From Streptomyces sp. NBC_00237 (GTDB lineage Bacteria > Actinomycetota > Actinomycetes > Streptomycetales > Streptomycetaceae): a stretch of 64,000 nt of DNA. Position 1 is the stretch's first letter; the number at the start of each line of letters is the position of its first letter. Position numbers and translations under genes: made by a program. Location of the stretch: contig NZ_JAPEMT010000001.1 in the NCBI RefSeq assembly GCF_026342435.1, forward strand, positions 1,482,501 to 1,546,500, given 5' to 3'. The notes beneath the pieces are model-generated. The model did not search any database. It worked only from the letters and a program-made list of their open reading frames with translations, and was not told the DNA's origin. Below are positions 17,222 through 43,299 of the stretch, piece after piece.

Positions 17222-18355
17222 TCAAGCGGAATGCCGCTTTATCCCCTTTGTGCGACCGTGCTCGCGCACCGCCCCCGTCGACCCCCTCACCACCAGCTCC
17301 GCCGCAACCTCCTCCACCCCACCGGTCCCACCGGCCCCGCCCGCCCCGCTCGCCAGCACCCCCGCCCGCGCCCCCGCCTCATACAACGGCAGTCGTACGG
17401 TCGTCAGTGCCGGGACGGTGTCCGTCGCCGACGGCAGGTCGTCGAAACCGGCCACCGAGAGGTCGTCGGGGATGCGCAGCCCCCGCTCCCGCGCCGCCGC
17501 GCAGACCCCGAGCGCGATGGTGTCGTTTGCGGCCACGACGGCAGTCAAGTCCGGTGCCAGGGTGAGGAGTTGCTCGGCGCGCTCCCGGCCGGTGGCCCGG
17601 TCGTAGGACCCGTGCAGCGTGAGCGCCGGATCGTCCTCGACGCCCGCCGCGGAGAGGGCCTCCCGGTGCCCCTCCAGGCGGTGCCGCGTCGTGGTGCGCT
17701 CGGCGGGCCCGGCGACGTAACCGATCCGGCGGTGGCCGAGGGAGAGCAGGTGCTCGGTGAGGCGGCGCGCTCCGGAGCGGTTGTCGAAGGAGAGCGTGGC
17801 GGAGACCGCCGCCCCCTCGGCCGGGGGGAGCGCGGGCCGCCCGCACAGGACGATGCGCGTGCCCCCCGCCGCCAGCCTGGCGAGCTTCGCCGCGACCGCC
17901 GCCGAGTGCTCCGGGTCCTCGATCGCGCCGCCGGTCAGGATGACGGCCGCCGCGCGCTGGCGCTGGAGGAGGGTGAGGTAGGTGAGCTCGCGGGCGGGGG
18001 AGCCGCCGGTGTTGCAGACGACGGCGAGGCGCTCCGCGTTCGTACGGACGGGAGCGGTGGCGGCGCCGGAGCCGTCGGCTCCGGCGGGCGGCGTGTTGAT
18101 GTGCGCCTGGGCCGCGCCCGCCATGATCCCGAAGAACGGGTCCGCGATGTCGTTGACCAGGATGCCGACCAGGTCGGACGTCGCGGCGGCCAGCGCGCTG
18201 GCGGGCCCGTTCACCACGTAGTCCAGCTCGGCCACCGCCCGCAGCACGCGCTCGCGCGTGGCCGCCGCCACCGGGTAATTGCCGTTCAGCACCCGGGACA
18301 CGGTGGCCGGGGACACCTGGGCGTGCTCCGCCACGTCCGCCAACGTCACTGTCAT
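17222..18355 (-). CDS. LacI-family transcriptional repressor
   Basis: A 377-residue regulator. The N-terminal HTH (LADVAEHAQVSPATVSRVLNG region, residues 5-25) and hinge helix are followed by a periplasmic-binding-like effector domain with DLVGILVNDIADPFFGIM, GHRRIGYVAGP and the C-terminal VAGFDDLP. The ATG at 18355 follows GAGGGCGGCGCG. It is divergent from the Gfo/Idh operon; a perfect 16-bp palindrome of LacI type lies between them. It probably represses that operon and itself until the inducing sugar appears. Confidence 0.93.
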   Translation of the reverse strand: MTVTLADVAEHAQVSPATVSRVLNGNYPVAAATRERVLRAVAELDYVVNGPASALAAATSDLVGILVNDIADPFFGIMAGAAQAHINTPPAGADGSGAATAPVRTNAERLAVVCNTGGSPARELTYLTLLQRQRAAAVILTGGAIEDPEHSAAVAAKLARLAAGGTRIVLCGRPALPPAEGAAVSATLSFDNRSGARRLTEHLLSLGHRRIGYVAGPAERTTTRHRLEGHREALSAAGVEDDPALTLHGSYDRATGRERAEQLLTLAPDLTAVVAANDTIALGVCAAARERGLRIPDDLSVAGFDDLPSATDTVPALTTVRLPLYEAGARAGVLASGAGGAGGTGGVEEVAAELVVRGSTGAVREHGRTKGIKRHSA

Positions 18356-18517
18356 CGCGCCGCCCTCATCCGCCTTCGTTCGTCTGCGTCCGGTGTTCAC
18401 CCGGTCTTCGTCGGGTTTCCGGCCGGTCTCCGTGCGTCTGGTCGCCGGGGTCATCTGGTCGGCCTCCGGGGCTTGTCGCACTGCCGTGCACAGGTTAGCT
18501 TCTTGGCTCGTAGCGCA

Positions 18518-18533
18518 TAGAAAGCGCTTTCTA
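18518..18533. promoter_or_regulatory. LacI-type operator, perfect 16-bp palindrome
   Basis: TAGAAAGCGCTTTCTA has the central CG and AAAGCGCTTT core typical of LacI/GalR operators. It is 163 bases upstream of the repressor start and 118 upstream of the dehydrogenase start. A partial half-site (GCTTTCTACG) follows near 18550. Confidence 0.8.
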
Positions 18534-18650
18534 CCTGTTTTCGGCGTGCTTTCTACGTGCTTCCTGCGCGCTCTCTCAGCGCCATGAGCGGCACAAACGG
18601 CAATGGCCGCGAGCGCGTGGCGGCCGTACGAAGAGGATCTGGGGACTGAC

Positions 18651-19802
18651 GTGACACGCAAGACAGTGCGGATCGCCATGAACGGCGTGACCGGACGCAT
18701 GGGCTACCGCCAGCACCTCGTACGGTCCGTCCTCGCGATCCGCGAGCAGGGCGGACTCGACCTCGGCGACGGCACCGTCCTGTGGCCCGAGCCCGTCCTC
18801 GTCGGCCGCCGCGAACACGCCCTGAAGGCGATAGCCGAGCGGCACGGCATCGAGGAGTGGTCCACGGACCTCGAAGCCGTACTCGCCGACGAGTCCATCG
18901 ACATCTACTTCGACGCCCAGGTCACCTCGGCCCGCGAGGACGCCCTCAAGCAGGCGATAGCCGCGGGCAAGCACCTCTACACCGAGAAGCCGACCGCCAC
19001 GGGCGTCGAAGGCGCGCTGGAACTGGTCCGGCTCGCCCGCGCCGCCGGGATCAAGCACGGCGTCGTCCAGGACAAGATCTTCCTCCCCGGCCTGCTGAAG
19101 CTGAAGCGCCTCATCGACGGCGGCTTCTTCGGCGAAATCCTGTCCGTACGGGGCGAGTTCGGCTACTGGGTCTTCGAGGGCGACTGGCAGGAAGCGCAGC
19201 GCCCTTCCTGGAACTACCGCTCGGAGGACGGCGGCGGCATCGTCGTCGACATGTTCCCGCACTGGGAGTACGTCCTGCACGAACTCTTCGGCCGCGTCAC
19301 CTCCGTCACCGCCCAGGTCGCCACGCACGTCCCGCAGCGCTGGGACGAGCACGGCAAGCCGTACGACGCGACCGCCGACGACTCCGCGTACGGCATCTTC
19401 CAGCTTCAGGGCGGCGCGATCGCCCAGATCAACTCCTCCTGGTCGGTCCGTGTCAACCGCGACGAACTGGTCGAGTTCCAGGTCGACGGCACCCATGGCT
19501 CCGCCGTGGCCGGGCTGCGCAACTGCCGTGTCCAGCACCGCTCTTCGACCCCCAAGCCGGTCTGGAACCCCGACCTCCCGGTCACCGAGTCCTTCCGCGA
19601 CCAGTGGCAGGAAGTCCCCGACAACGCGGCCTTCGACAACGGCTTCAAGGCGCAGTGGGAGCTGTTCCTGCGCCACGTCGTCCTCGACGAGCCGTACACC
19701 TGGGACCTCCTCGCGGGCGCACGCGGCGTCCAGCTCGCCGAGCTGGGCCTCAAGTCCTCGGCGGAGGGCCGCCGTTACGACGTCCCGGAGCTGACCCTGT
19801 GA
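18651..19802 (+). CDS. Gfo/Idh/MocA-family oxidoreductase
   Basis: NAD(P)-dependent sugar or cyclitol dehydrogenase of 383 residues. The Rossmann glycines are in NGVTGRMGYR at 11-20, and the family motif TEKP is at 111-114. The C-terminal beta-sheet domain contains GGIVVDMFPHWEYVL, where the catalytic-type His lies. GTG 18651 with GGGGAC upstream is preferred to an ATG at 18603. It heads an operon with a DUF993 protein and a TIM-barrel isomerase. The set looks like catabolism of an unusual sugar or polyol: oxidation here, then isomerisation and cleavage. Its stop overlaps a GTG in a GTGA chain. Confidence 0.9.
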   Translation: MTRKTVRIAMNGVTGRMGYRQHLVRSVLAIREQGGLDLGDGTVLWPEPVLVGRREHALKAIAERHGIEEWSTDLEAVLADESIDIYFDAQVTSAREDALKQAIAAGKHLYTEKPTATGVEGALELVRLARAAGIKHGVVQDKIFLPGLLKLKRLIDGGFFGEILSVRGEFGYWVFEGDWQEAQRPSWNYRSEDGGGIVVDMFPHWEYVLHELFGRVTSVTAQVATHVPQRWDEHGKPYDATADDSAYGIFQLQGGAIAQINSSWSVRVNRDELVEFQVDGTHGSAVAGLRNCRVQHRSSTPKPVWNPDLPVTESFRDQWQEVPDNAAFDNGFKAQWELFLRHVVLDEPYTWDLLAGARGVQLAELGLKSSAEGRRYDVPELTL

Positions 19803-19915
19803 GCGCGCTGATCCTGCCGGTGGCGGGCGGGGGCGAGACCGGGGACGCATGTTCCCCGCGCGCCGGGGCCTCGGCCGGGTCCCGCCGTCGCGATGCTCCG
19901 GAGCTGACCCCGTGA
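19799..19915 (+). CDS. Chimeric mini-ORF 1 in the GTGA chain (38 residues)
   Basis: Starts at the GTG overlapping the dehydrogenase stop. It begins MSALILPVAGGGE, like the start of the DUF993 protein, and ends RRRDAPELTP, like the end of the dehydrogenase (RRYDVPELTL). It ends in a GTGA overlap with the next mini-ORF. It is probably a by-product of junction duplication. Whether a peptide accumulates is unknown; its likely role is to pass ribosomes on. Confidence 0.5.
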   Translation: MSALILPVAGGGETGDACSPRAGASAGSRRRDAPELTP

Positions 19916-20037
19916 GCGCGCGGAACCTGACCCGGTCGGTGCCGGGCGACGCGCCGTTCCCCGCCTCGGCCCCCCGATTCTCGCCCAAGTCCGCGCCCGG
20001 CGACCGCCGTTACGACACCTCGGAGCTGATCCCGTGA
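19912..20037 (+). CDS. Chimeric mini-ORF 2 in the GTGA chain (41 residues)
   Basis: Starts at the GTG overlapping the stop of mini-ORF 1, begins MSARNLTRSVPGD and ends RRYDTSELIP, again joining a DUF993-like start to a dehydrogenase-like end. Its stop overlaps the GTG start of the DUF993 gene. Three reading frames are thus linked in series. Confidence 0.5.
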   Translation: MSARNLTRSVPGDAPFPASAPRFSPKSAPGDRRYDTSELIP

Positions 20038-21203
20038 GCACCCTCACTCTCACCCTCCCCGTCGCGGGCGGCGGAACGTACACCCACACCCCCCGCACCG
20101 AGCCGTCCTCACACGTCGCCGGGCGCGCCCCCCTCGTCTCCCGTACGGTCTTCTCCGCAGCCCACGTGGTCGCCGACCCCTACGCGGACACGTCCCCCGA
20201 CGCTCCGGCGGCCGTCGACTGGGACGCCACCCTCGCGTTCCGCCGTCACCTGTGGTCGCACGGCCTCGGAGTCGCCGAGGCCATGGACACCGCGCAGCGC
20301 GGCATGGGCCTGGACTGGGCGGGGGCGGCGGAGCTGATCCGCCGCTCGGCCGCCGAGGCGAAGTCGGTGGGCGGCGCGATAGCGTGCGGCGTCGGTACCG
20401 ACCAACTCCCCCCAGGCGCACATGACCTGGCGACGGTGACGGCCGCCTACGAGGAACAGCTCGCCCTCGTCGAGTCGACCGGCTCCCAGGCCGTCCTGAT
20501 GGCCTCCCGCGCCCTCGCGGCGGCGGCTCGCGGCCCCGAGGACTACCTCGCCACCTACGGCCACCTCGTCCGCCAGGCCACGGAACCGGTCGTCCTGCAC
20601 TGGCTGGGCCCGATGTTCGACCCGGCCCTGGACGGCTACTGGGGCTCCCGCGACCTGGACGCGGCGACCGAGACCTTCCTTCAGGTCATCGCCGCCCACC
20701 CCGACAAGGTCGACGGCATCAAGGTGTCGCTCCTCGACGCCCAGCGCGAGATCGATCTGCGCCGCCGCCTGCCGGAGGGCGTGCGCTGTTACACGGGCGA
20801 CGACTTCCACTACCCCGAACTGATCGCGGGCGACGAACAGGGCTTCTCCCACGCCCTGTTGGGCATCTTCGACCCGCTCGGCCCACTGGCCGCCGAAGCG
20901 GTCCGCGTCCTCGACACGGGCGACGCGGCGGCCTTCCGCAAGCTCCTCGACCCCACCGTCGCCCTCTCCCGCCACCTCTTCCAGCCCCCCACCCGCTTCT
21001 ACAAGACGGGCGTCGTCCTGCTCGCCTGGCTGGCGGGCCACCAGTCCCACTTCACGATGGTCGGCGGCCTCCAGTCGGCCCGCTCCCTCCCGCACCTGGC
21101 CCGCGCCTACGAACTGGCCGACGGGGTGGGCCTGTTCCCGGACCCCGCCCTGGCCGCGTCCCGCATGCGCGCCCTGCTCACCGTCCACGGAGTCCCCCAG
21201 TGA
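20034..21203 (+). CDS. DUF993-family protein (dihydrodipicolinate-synthase-like barrel)
   Basis: A 389-residue member of DUF993, related to the DHDPS/NAL aldolase barrel superfamily. Barrel-like features include VVLHWLGPMFDP and the lysine in DKVDGIKVSLLD, at the place of a possible Schiff-base lysine. The GTG at 20034 overlaps the preceding mini-ORF stop, and its own stop overlaps the next gene as GTGA. Position and fold suggest a lyase or aldolase step in the LacI-controlled pathway. No member function is known to me. Confidence 0.82.
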   Translation: MSTLTLTLPVAGGGTYTHTPRTEPSSHVAGRAPLVSRTVFSAAHVVADPYADTSPDAPAAVDWDATLAFRRHLWSHGLGVAEAMDTAQRGMGLDWAGAAELIRRSAAEAKSVGGAIACGVGTDQLPPGAHDLATVTAAYEEQLALVESTGSQAVLMASRALAAAARGPEDYLATYGHLVRQATEPVVLHWLGPMFDPALDGYWGSRDLDAATETFLQVIAAHPDKVDGIKVSLLDAQREIDLRRRLPEGVRCYTGDDFHYPELIAGDEQGFSHALLGIFDPLGPLAAEAVRVLDTGDAAAFRKLLDPTVALSRHLFQPPTRFYKTGVVLLAWLAGHQSHFTMVGGLQSARSLPHLARAYELADGVGLFPDPALAASRMRALLTVHGVPQ

Positions 21204-22039
21204 CCGCCGCATCCCCGTCCCGCCTGAGCATCAATCAAGAAACCATCAAGCAATGGTCGTTGGAGGAGCTGGCCGAGGGCTGCACCTCGGCCGGAATCTC
21301 CCGGGTCGGCCTCTGGCGGTCCCCCGTCCAGGAGTACGGAGTCGAGCGCGCGGCCAAGCTGATGCGGGACGCCGGGCTCTCGGTGACGAGCCTGTGCCGG
21401 GGCGGTTTCCTCACGGCCACCGACCCGGAACTGCGCACCGCAGCCCTCGACGACAACCGCCTCGCCATCGACGAGGCGGCCACCCTGGGCACGGACACCC
21501 TGGTCCTGGTCTCCGGCGGACTCCCGCCCGGCGCGCGGGACTTGGCTGCCGCCCGCGAACGCATAGCCGACGCGCTCGCGATCCTGGCCCCGTACGCCTT
21601 CGCGTGCGGTGTCCGCCTCGCCATCGAACCCCTCCACCCGATGTTCGCCTCGGACCGCTGCGTGGTGTCGACCCTGGGTCAGGCCCTGGATCTGGCGGAA
21701 CGCTTCCCCGCCTCCCACGTCGGAGTGGTGGTCGACACCTACCACGTCTGGTGGGACGACCAGGCCCCCGCGCAGATCGCGCGGGCGGGCGCGACCGGCC
21801 GCATCCACTCCTTCCAGGTCGCGGACTGGATCACCCCACTCCCAGCAGGAGTCCTCCTGGGCAGGGGCAAACTGGGCGACGGCAGCATCGACCTGCGGGC
21901 CTTCCGGTCCATGGTCGACGCGACGGGCTTCACCGGCCCGATCGAGGTCGAGATCTTCAACGAGTCCCTGTGGGCCCGCCCCGGCCCGGAGGTCCTGACG
22001 GAGATCGTGGAGCGGTACCGGCAGCACGTGCTGGAGTAG
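21200..22039 (+). CDS. Sugar phosphate isomerase/epimerase TIM barrel
   Basis: A 279-residue xylose-isomerase-like barrel. Metal ligands are probable in LAIEPLHP, VVVDTYHVWWD, IHSFQVADW and the final IEVEIFN. The GTG start overlaps the stop of the DUF993 gene (GTGA at 21200-21203), so it is the last gene of the LacI-controlled operon. A strong hairpin follows 23 bases after its stop. Proposed role: isomerisation of a keto-sugar intermediate; the exact substrate is unknown. Confidence 0.88.
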   Translation: MTAASPSRLSINQETIKQWSLEELAEGCTSAGISRVGLWRSPVQEYGVERAAKLMRDAGLSVTSLCRGGFLTATDPELRTAALDDNRLAIDEAATLGTDTLVLVSGGLPPGARDLAAARERIADALAILAPYAFACGVRLAIEPLHPMFASDRCVVSTLGQALDLAERFPASHVGVVVDTYHVWWDDQAPAQIARAGATGRIHSFQVADWITPLPAGVLLGRGKLGDGSIDLRAFRSMVDATGFTGPIEVEIFNESLWARPGPEVLTEIVERYRQHVLE

Positions 22040-35757: not shown

Positions 35758-36711
35758 GTGTACGACCTGATCGTGATGGGCCGCCTCGGCGTGGACCTCT
35801 ATCCGCTCCAGCCCGGCGTGCCGCTGGACCGGGTCGAGACCTTCGGCCGGTTCCTCGGCGGCTCGGCCGCGAACGTGGCGGTCGCCGCGGCCCGGCTGGG
35901 GTGCCGCGTCGCGCTGGTCTCCCGTACCGGAGCCGATCCCTTCGGGGCTTACCTGCGAAGGGAGTTGGCGGCCTTCGGGGTCGACGCGCGGTGGGTCACG
36001 GAGGTCGCCGACCACCCCACCCCCATCACCTTCTGCGAGGTCTTCCCGCCGGACGACTTCCCGCTGTACTTCTACCGGCGGCCCCGCGCACCCGACCTGG
36101 AGATCCACCCCGGCGAGAGCGACCTCGACGCCGTGCGCGCCGCCCGCGCCTTCTGGGCCACCGGTACGGGGCTGTGCGCGCAGCCCAGCAGGGACGCCAC
36201 CCTGGAGGCCCTCGCGGCCCGTTCGCGCGCCCCGCACACCGTGCTCGACCTCGACTGGCGGCCCGTGTTCTGGACCGGGCAGGACCCGCGCCCGTACTAC
36301 GAGCAGGCGCTGCGGCACGCGACGGTCGCCGTCGGCAACGTGGACGAGTGCGAGATCGCCACGGGCGCGCGCGCACCACGGGAGGCGGCCCGCGCGCTGC
36401 TGGACGCGGGGGTGACGCTCGCCGTCGTCAAGCAGGGGCCCGAGGGGGTGCTCGCCGTGCACCGGGACGGCACGGAGGTACGGGTGCCACCTCTTGAGGT
36501 GAAGGTGCTCAACGGGCTCGGCGCGGGGGACGCGTTCGGCGGGGCGCTGTGCGAGGGGCTCCTCGCGGGGCGCCCCCTGGAGGACACCGTACGGAGGGCG
36601 AACGCGGCGGGGGCGCTGGTGGCCACCCGCCTGGAGTGTTCGTCCGCGATGCCGTACGGGCACGAGATCGACGCACTGCTGACGACGACGGGCGGTACGG
36701 AAGTTGAGTGA
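35758..36711 (+). CDS. iolC: 5-dehydro-2-deoxygluconokinase
   Basis: PfkB-family kinase of 317 residues that phosphorylates 5-dehydro-2-deoxygluconate in myo-inositol breakdown. The N-terminal GGSAANVAVAAARLG and the C-terminal ATP-site motif NGLGAGDAFGGAL with catalytic Asp are present. The GTG start follows GGAGGAGGGG. It lacks the C-terminal aldolase-like domain that some IolC proteins carry. iolB starts inside its last codons. First gene of iolC-iolB-iolD-mmsA. Confidence 0.9.
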   Translation: MYDLIVMGRLGVDLYPLQPGVPLDRVETFGRFLGGSAANVAVAAARLGCRVALVSRTGADPFGAYLRRELAAFGVDARWVTEVADHPTPITFCEVFPPDDFPLYFYRRPRAPDLEIHPGESDLDAVRAARAFWATGTGLCAQPSRDATLEALAARSRAPHTVLDLDWRPVFWTGQDPRPYYEQALRHATVAVGNVDECEIATGARAPREAARALLDAGVTLAVVKQGPEGVLAVHRDGTEVRVPPLEVKVLNGLGAGDAFGGALCEGLLAGRPLEDTVRRANAAGALVATRLECSSAMPYGHEIDALLTTTGGTEVE

Positions 36712-42375: not shown

Positions 42376-43299
42376 TCAACGGGCCGTACCGAGGGAAGCG
42401 CGCGGGGGACCGCCCGGAGGGCACAGGGAGGACACGGAGGACACGGAGGACACGAGAGACAGGGGAGACAGGGAGGACAGAAGAGTCCCGATGGCGACCG
42501 TCGCCCCCGTCTCCTCGTCCTCCTCGACACGGGCCACCAGCCCGCCCCGCACCATCGCCGCCACCGTCCGCTCCGCCTGCCGCTCGCTCGTCTCGATCAG
42601 CAGGCTGCCGCCCGGTGCCAGCCACCGTGCCGCTTCCGCCGTCACCCGGCGCTGCACGTCCAGGCCGTCCACGCCGCCGTCCAGCGCCACGAGGGGTTCG
42701 TGGTCGCGCGCCTCGGAGGGGAGGAGGGGGATGTCCTGGGTCGGGACGTACGGGGCGTTGGCGACCAGGACGTCCACCCGGCCCCGTATCCCGGCGGGCA
42801 GCGGCGCGTACAGGTCCCCCTCGTACACCCGCCCGCCCACCGGCTCCACGTTCCGCCGCGCGCACCGCACCGCCGCACCCTCCACGTCGGCGGCGTACAG
42901 CTCGATGCCCGGCAGCCGGGCCCCGAGCACCGCCGCGGCAGCGCCCGACCCGCAGCACAGGTCCAGCACGACGGCCCCCGGCTGCCGTGCGGCGGCCAGC
43001 GCGACGGCGTGCCCGACGAGGAATTCCGTACGGGGGCGGGGGACGAAGACACCCGGGTCGACGGCGATACGCAGCCCGCAGAACTCCGCCCAGCCGAGGA
43101 CGTGTTCCAACGGCAGCCCGTCCACCCGCAGTTCGACCAGTTCGGCGAGCGCCTCGCCCCTGCGGCCGGTGGACAGCAACAGTGCCGCCTCGTCCTCGGC
43201 GAACACGCAGCCGGCCGCACGCAGTTGTGCGACGACAGCGGAGACCAGAGCGGTGGAGGGAGCGGCAGAGCGCGCGGGGGAGAGCGTGGTGAGCGACAT
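42376..43299 (-). CDS. PrmC/HemK-like glutamine N5-methyltransferase paralogue
   Basis: SAM-dependent methyltransferase of 307 residues. SAM motif I is DLCCGSGA at 113-120, and the substrate motif, NPPY in PrmC, is NAPY at 181-184. An N-terminal helical domain (about 15-75) is present as in PrmC. The C-terminus ends in a Ser/Val-rich tail (LVSSVSSVSSL) coded by short tandem repeats. It may methylate a protein other than release factors, since a canonical prmC is expected elsewhere. Start MSLTTLSPARSA at 43299 with AAGG upstream. Confidence 0.82.
   Translation of the reverse strand: MSLTTLSPARSAAPSTALVSAVVAQLRAAGCVFAEDEAALLLSTGRRGEALAELVELRVDGLPLEHVLGWAEFCGLRIAVDPGVFVPRPRTEFLVGHAVALAAARQPGAVVLDLCCGSGAAAAVLGARLPGIELYAADVEGAAVRCARRNVEPVGGRVYEGDLYAPLPAGIRGRVDVLVANAPYVPTQDIPLLPSEARDHEPLVALDGGVDGLDVQRRVTAEAARWLAPGGSLLIETSERQAERTVAAMVRGGLVARVEEDEETGATVAIGTLLSSLSPLSLVSSVSSVSSLCPPGGPPRASLGTAR
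42427..42482 (-). repeat. Short tandem repeat in the methyltransferase C-terminus
   Basis: GGAGGACAC is repeated three times in 9-bp steps and decays into GAGAGACAGGGGAGACAGGGAGGACAG. It codes for the Ser/Val-rich tail; step length keeps the frame. Confidence 0.85.

Follow-up and report, generated by a model that had tools for sequence, protein, structure and literature searches.

Chained short reading frames between a dehydrogenase gene and a DUF993 gene of Streptomyces as a probable translational relay

In a 64,000-nucleotide (nt) stretch of the genome of Streptomyces sp. NBC_00237 (contig NZ_JAPEMT010000001.1, positions 1,482,501 to 1,546,500; the whole stretch is called the window, and its own numbering is used throughout), a gene for a Gfo/Idh/MocA-type dehydrogenase and the DUF993 gene downstream are bridged by two short open reading frames (mini-ORFs), each of which starts on the stop codon that precedes it and stops on the start codon that follows it. 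We propose, at a probability of about three in four, that this arrangement is a translational relay, in which duplicated overlap junctions survive if they are frame-neutral, and in which ribosomes would be passed on by repeated termination-reinitiation. The evidence is comparative: among 241 non-redundant junctions from Streptomyces and near relatives, the DUF993 start is displaced from the dehydrogenase stop in 31, and 28 of these 31, with the window included, contain an unbroken chain of such mini-ORFs.

In the window, the dehydrogenase gene (18651 to 19802 on the forward strand, as are all features of this junction; PF22725, PF02894 and PF01408; 18651 is an assumed start, within an ORF open from the ATG at 18603) ends with a TGA (19800-19802) that overlaps a GTG at 19799, and this GTGA (link 1, 19799-19802) begins mini-ORF 1, which runs for 38 codons (19799-19915) to a TGA at 19913-19915. 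That stop overlaps the GTG at 19912 (link 2, GTGA, 19912-19915), which begins mini-ORF 2, of 41 codons (19912-20037), and its stop, the TGA at 20035-20037, overlaps the GTG at 20034 with which the DUF993 gene begins (link 3, GTGA, 20034-20037). The DUF993 gene itself (20034-21203; PF06187, E 3e-182) encodes 389 amino acids. A GGAG Shine-Dalgarno (SD) core lies at -12 of each of the three links, at 19787-19790, 19900-19903 and 20022-20025. The original prediction, made from the letters of the window, had described this GTGA-linked chain of 38 and 41 codons, and sequence and ORF reading confirmed it to the base. A Pfam search with both mini-ORFs returned no family at E 0.001.

A repeat search demonstrated that the gene border is present in three ungapped copies of 85 nt, spaced by 113 and 122 nt: copy 1 (19751-19835) joins the true dehydrogenase tail to a DUF993-like head, copy 2 (19864-19948) lies between the two genes, and copy 3 (19986-20070) joins a dehydrogenase-like tail to the true DUF993 head. 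Copies 2 and 3 are 72% and 71% identical to the first, and the longest stretch conserved over all three is the ribosome-binding core with the link, CGGAGCTGA.CC.GTGAGC. The best ungapped 85-nt self-match within 19740-20075 has 61 of 85 positions identical, a value reached by none of 200 dinucleotide shuffles (maximum 47). These copies support the earlier proposal that the coupled junction itself was duplicated twice, and the presence of GTGA at all three links agrees with its statement that the overlap was kept through the changes of frame. The same prediction held that each mini-ORF starts like the DUF993 protein and ends like the dehydrogenase, and this stood for the tails (18 of 24 and 19 of 24 nt) and, at the nucleotide level, for the heads (10 of 18, empirical p 0.012, and 11 of 18, p 0.004), with the head of mini-ORF 2 weak at the protein level when judged by eye. 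Neither a single diverged gene nor an assembly artefact, two of the cases that had been named as fatal to it, fits the region: the three copies are about 28% divergent, and a like architecture is present, with other sequences, in assemblies from other species. Tandem Repeats Finder found no array at the window junction. RNA structure was considered as a cause of the repeats and rejected, the predicted fold of 19780-20060 being no better than those of shuffled sequences (z -0.39).

A search of the genus with the junction (392 genomes, of which at least 271 had some match) showed no window triplication elsewhere among the places listed; among these, the best match outside the window's own genome covers the dehydrogenase tail only (query positions 1-43 of 301, E 2.1e-12), none extends from the dehydrogenase tail beyond query position 76, and the few matches to parts of the spacer include, as the strongest, 65 nt at 80% (E 2.2e-9) in locus L129, which contains neither gene. 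Taken alone, the chain in the window genome is only moderately surprising, since a simulated spacer with the window's phase forms a chain with a chance of about 0.03, and it is the comparison with relatives that carries the weight.

For this comparison, 301 loci were fetched, of which 296 were usable (all except L114, L129, L186, L203 and L204), and removal of 55 of these 296 as duplicates, including extra copies of the window, left the 241 junctions. The loci were chosen by likeness to the flanking genes and not by junction type, in a sample that is not random (the best 80 of 588, up to 30 per genome search, and hand-picked stretches of the listed matches). The DUF993 start was picked by a rule blind to the chain, CTG was allowed as an internal link, which is relevant only to L115 among the 28 chains, and trees were built from the two flanking genes only. 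The rule gave a distance of 0 in 202 loci, and a further eight (L067, L071, L098, L130, L162, L197, L248 and L277) were set to direct by hand because in these the reading frame opened by the overlapping GTG continues without interruption, the start having been misplaced by the rule. A direct overlap of the dehydrogenase and DUF993 genes is therefore counted in 210 of the 241 junctions. The ancestral state was probably this direct GTGA overlap, with GGAG encoded in the dehydrogenase tail (..PEL..), as it is in most of the relatives.

Examination of the 28 chains demonstrated that in every one a GTG overlaps the dehydrogenase stop, every mini-ORF terminates on the start codon of the one after it, and the last terminates on the rule-picked DUF993 start, all links being ATGA, GTGA or TTGA except for one CTGA in L115. 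Twenty-three chains consist of one mini-ORF, three of two (the window, which is L001, together with L057 and L113), one of three (L179) and one of five (L115). With L045 and L279 set apart, the displaced loci are distributed over five clades of the tree, namely the window, L178/L179, L115, L095/L100 and a clade of 39 rows that holds 16 direct and 23 chained loci, the latter including those of S. halstedii (L076) and S. fimicarius (L101). Three displaced loci are exceptions: L045 has about 1.5 kb inserted, L279 has a TAG stop and a start at +16 nt, and L095 has the right phase with an extra stop just upstream. With the window set aside, chains are present at 27 of 30 displaced junctions, and the expectation that relatives always keep the overlap thus held for most and failed for these three. 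In L279, where the DUF993 start 16 nt on is an ATG, we observed the sole sampled relative that has apparently abandoned the overlap without a relay. In L045, the DNA between the dehydrogenase stop, which reads TTGA, and the DUF993 start is transposon-like by its looks.

The distances covered in one step within the chains take ten values (35, 38, 41, 44, 47, 56, 65, 86, 113 and 149 nt), all of which are 2 mod 3, and the distance in L095, 68 nt, is an eleventh value of the same phase, for which (1/3)^11 = 5.6e-6. Across the 241 tips, parsimony requires the distance to have changed 25 times (17 times in a 42-row tree made of the 39-row clade and three outgroup rows), with no more than 3 of these changes ending in a non-chain state (P of at least 22 of 25 at 1/3, 2.3e-8). 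A simulated random spacer forms a chain with a probability of 0.28. The next junction in the operon served as a control: in the window, the xylose-isomerase-like TIM-barrel gene (21200-22039, forward strand; PF01261) overlaps DUF993 directly (GTGA, 21200-21203) and without mini-ORFs, and across the relatives no mini-ORF was found at this DUF993/TIM-barrel junction in any of 238 loci, the overlapping frame running straight into the TIM-barrel gene in 237 (the sole exception, L031, overlaps in the wrong frame). The chaining behaviour therefore belongs to the dehydrogenase/DUF993 junction and not to our method. We conclude from these comparisons that phase and overlap are kept by selection.

The peptides show a different pattern. 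In four groups of same-length mini-ORFs (389 codon comparisons), differences at the first, second and third codon positions are 0.267, 0.272 and 0.249; the corresponding values are 0.031, 0.022 and 0.151 for the last 100 codons of the dehydrogenase, and 0.160, 0.147 and 0.273 for the 25 codons that follow the DUF993 start codon. The 37 mini-ORFs range from 11 to 50 codons, and their G+C content at second codon positions (GC2) is 0.70, versus 0.43-0.48 in the flanking genes. An SD core precedes the DUF993 start in 27 of 28 chained and 209 of 210 direct loci, and precedes 8 of 9 internal links, with 9% at background positions. This pattern indicates that phase, stop, start and SD are conserved while the peptide is free to vary, and the simplest reading would be that a mini-ORF works by being translated.

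On these grounds the relay could have arisen and could operate as follows. In the ancestor, the dehydrogenase stop would have overlapped the DUF993 start as GTGA, with the GGAG core inside the dehydrogenase tail, and a segment spanning this border would have been duplicated locally, twice in the window, as its repeats indicate. A duplication whose length is 2 mod 3 would create a chimeric mini-ORF with a DUF993-like head on the old stop and a dehydrogenase-like tail that ends on the next start, a form seen in the window and in several relatives; because such a mini-ORF ends on the next start, repeats could therefore grow or shrink without cutting the coupling. A ribosome finishing the dehydrogenase would restart on the overlapping GTG, read the mini-ORF, end on the next start and repeat this until it reaches DUF993, as the architecture and known termination-reinitiation suggest. 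The original prediction had likewise put the mini-ORFs forward as stepping stones for ribosomes, which would perhaps also adjust stoichiometry. Selection would retain the phase, the overlap and the ribosome-binding core and not the peptide, as the comparison implies, and the array would be frame-neutral, in that 0, 1, 2, 3 or 5 units all reach the DUF993 start. Experiments in Haloferax and E. coli are described in which reinitiation drops steeply when the start lies about 20-40 nt from the stop (PMC10666635), and a displaced start without a relay should therefore lose most of its reinitiating ribosomes.

Likeness to the neighbouring genes shows where many of the units came from. A dehydrogenase-like tail is present in 18 of the 37 mini-ORFs, a DUF993-like head in 11 and both in 8 (empirical p at most 0.02 each), and the remaining mini-ORFs are diverged or of other origin, with one subgroup (L082, L136, L137, L140 and L101) resembling neither gene. 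The clearest junction-derived units are those of L179, L178 and L115, the second units of L057 and L113, and both units of the window. For example, L179 carries three 38-nt units in which the 24 nt ahead of the stop are identical to the dehydrogenase tail (24 of 24 positions), and its sister L178 has one unit, while the five units of L115 make four steps of 35 nt and one of 32. A search of the first 200 loci revealed no class of 3n-length duplications, which would appear as N-terminal extensions of DUF993. Among single loci, L106 and L143 have long DUF993 heads, L105, a direct overlap, has an in-frame xTGA behind an SD core, and in L074 repeats of an LDVPEL-like motif extend the dehydrogenase C-terminus just ahead of the overlap, so that 3n tail duplications inside the upstream gene may also occur.

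The reading that survives best beside the relay is one of dosage tuning, which does not exclude it: each link would shift the ratio of DUF993 to dehydrogenase, and the copy number would be selected for that ratio. The range of 0 to 5 copies among relatives is consistent with this, as is the DUF993 start codon, which looks as if it had been re-tuned, being ATG in 17 of 28 chained loci and in 1 of 210 direct overlaps, where 208 have GTG. In a direct overlap, the predominant CTG TGA ending of the dehydrogenase (the last codon is CTG in 195 of 210) would fix the start as GTG. Correction for relatedness leaves nine independent pairs on supported branches, of which 3-5 are for the association, none is against and the rest show no difference (p 0.06-0.25), so that the link of ATG with chains is only suggestive, and we consider dosage tuning unlikely. 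The association also fits a release of the start site from upstream coding, again as a suggestive finding that is weak after correction. The close sisters L239 and L156 differ in just this respect, one having a direct GTG overlap and the other a 29-codon mini-ORF and an ATG start. A tentative, wider reading, which we regard as possible and would not favour, is that bacterial border duplications act as frame-neutral translational repeats, in which a 3n+2 unit with its own stop, start and SD lets the number of units change while the route of the ribosomes stays intact and, beyond keeping the genes coupled, frees the downstream start from upstream coding; this might be a general escape from the conflict inherent in 4-nt overlaps, unannotated at many operon junctions.

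Two further readings deny that the chain delivers the ribosomes that translate DUF993. In the first, DUF993 would start de novo, and the chain would prevent ribosomes that unavoidably reinitiate on the dehydrogenase stop from crossing the DUF993 start in the wrong frame, or would keep the spacer covered against Rho. The SD core retained ahead of nearly every DUF993 start in the chained loci (27 of 28) and the full translation of the spacers in such a model speak for it, yet for non-interference any stop in the spacer would suffice, and 28 of 31 displaced junctions have a frame that ends exactly on the start, with only that of L095 stopping shortly before; we hold this reading to be improbable. 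In the second, the mini-ORFs are neutral leftovers of harmless duplications, with DUF993 starting from its own SD and the frames linked by chance. The chance of about 0.03 for a chain in the window genome alone, the probabilities that the two window frames are open (0.71 and 0.65) and the free evolution of the spacer sequence are compatible with this. A crude gene scan of the window also located four further chains, each with a start codon on the stop of a gene and a run of short, linked frames that extends up to a long ORF, at 36709 and 59356 on the forward and at 42378 and 17224 on the reverse strand, and these may be chance as well. Neutral leftovers would not be expected to keep the phase through at least 22 of 25 changes of distance, or to form chains at 28 of 31 displaced junctions when a random spacer does so with a probability of 0.28, and we judge this explanation quite improbable.

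The two remaining explanations carry very little weight. Insertion of a mobile repeat at the coupling site, like the mycobacterial interspersed repetitive units (MIRUs), which are described with the same architecture, namely a short ORF with -4 nt coupling where the unit inserts (PMC12548453), is very improbable, since the window spacer is not dispersed in its genome (its sole matches at E below 1e-3 are its own site and its copy within the junction), the sequences of many units are similar to those of the local genes, and units differ in sequence between clades. Least probable of all is that the mini-ORFs encode functional small peptides, which their SD cores and start codons would permit, because the equal divergence of same-length pairs at the three codon positions speaks against a conserved small-protein gene, and lengths and GC2 point the same way.

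Several observations weigh against the relay as we propose it. The loci are not independent, since 23 of the 28 chain loci lie within one 39-row clade; counting the five clades alone gives p of about 0.002, a count that includes the L095/L100 clade, where only L100 is exact, and the parsimony changes include reversions to direct overlap. The window, which prompted the hypothesis, is included in the counts. A clear dehydrogenase-like tail is lacking in 19 of the 37 mini-ORFs, and some need not be junction duplications. Exact overlap is not indispensable, as L279, L045 and L095 show, and DUF993 could also initiate independently because nearly every start retains its own SD core. The four other linked chains of the window, which may be chance or short genes, warn that architecture alone proves little.

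Upstream of the operon, a divergent ORF (17222-18700, reverse strand) contains, by eye, a LacI-type helix-turn-helix stretch and is likely the operon regulator. A search of open-licence papers for DUF993 found none.

This junction is a natural evolutionary experiment on coupling, in which the lengths and sequences of inserts are free and yet almost only those inserts are found that would land a ribosome exactly on the next start. The comparison thus speaks for a role of termination-reinitiation at an overlap in its native setting, and it points to ORFs that would be translated without a conserved peptide, a class that annotation may overlook. Among known systems, MIRUs occur as tandem copies. 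According to a 2025 review, which cites Supply et al. (1997), they carry an ORF coupled by -4 nt at the insertion, so that expression is likely little affected by the added DNA (PMC12548453); the window mini-ORFs are likewise short ORFs at a gene border coupled with -4 nt spacing, whereas MIRUs are, in that account, a repetitive and apparently mobile family, and the window units derive from the local border, have clade-specific sequences and are not dispersed in the genome. The same review treats short ORFs that deliver ribosomes, together with their biotechnological use. Gene pairs described as coupled by termination-reinitiation share the 4-nt stop/start overlaps, local reinitiation and the loss of coupling with distance (PMC6728339, PMC10666635); those pairs, as presented there, join two genes, whereas here non-conserved mini-ORFs lie between, with up to six successive overlaps (L115, one of them CTGA). 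All three window links have the 4-nt xTGA overlap that characterizes such pairs.

In a bicistronic design, the SD of the next gene lies within a short cistron that terminates on the following start codon. The layout of the window, with GGAG at -12 of all three links, and that of the chain loci, with the SD core in 27 of 28, correspond to this. In these designs, too, the ribosome is guided by a short cistron to the start codon that follows, but they are synthetic and placed ahead of a target gene (PMC5995908, PMC10367133), whereas the chains are natural and lie inside an operon. Translation of a short ORF affects that of the next gene also at iraD (PMC5574718) and in the small ORF of a Salmonella Mg2+ transporter (PMC8092293), which are, as these papers describe them, single regulatory ORFs and not serial chains of duplicated junctions. 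A ribosome profiling data set has been published for Streptomyces griseus NBRC 13350 (PMC8914203). Among the open-licence papers listed as matches, none was, by its title and the start of its abstract, about relays of self-duplicated junctions. The principle is known from translational coupling, MIRUs and bicistronic designs, and what appears to be new is the recurrence, at one junction, of relays that are self-derived and peptide-free.

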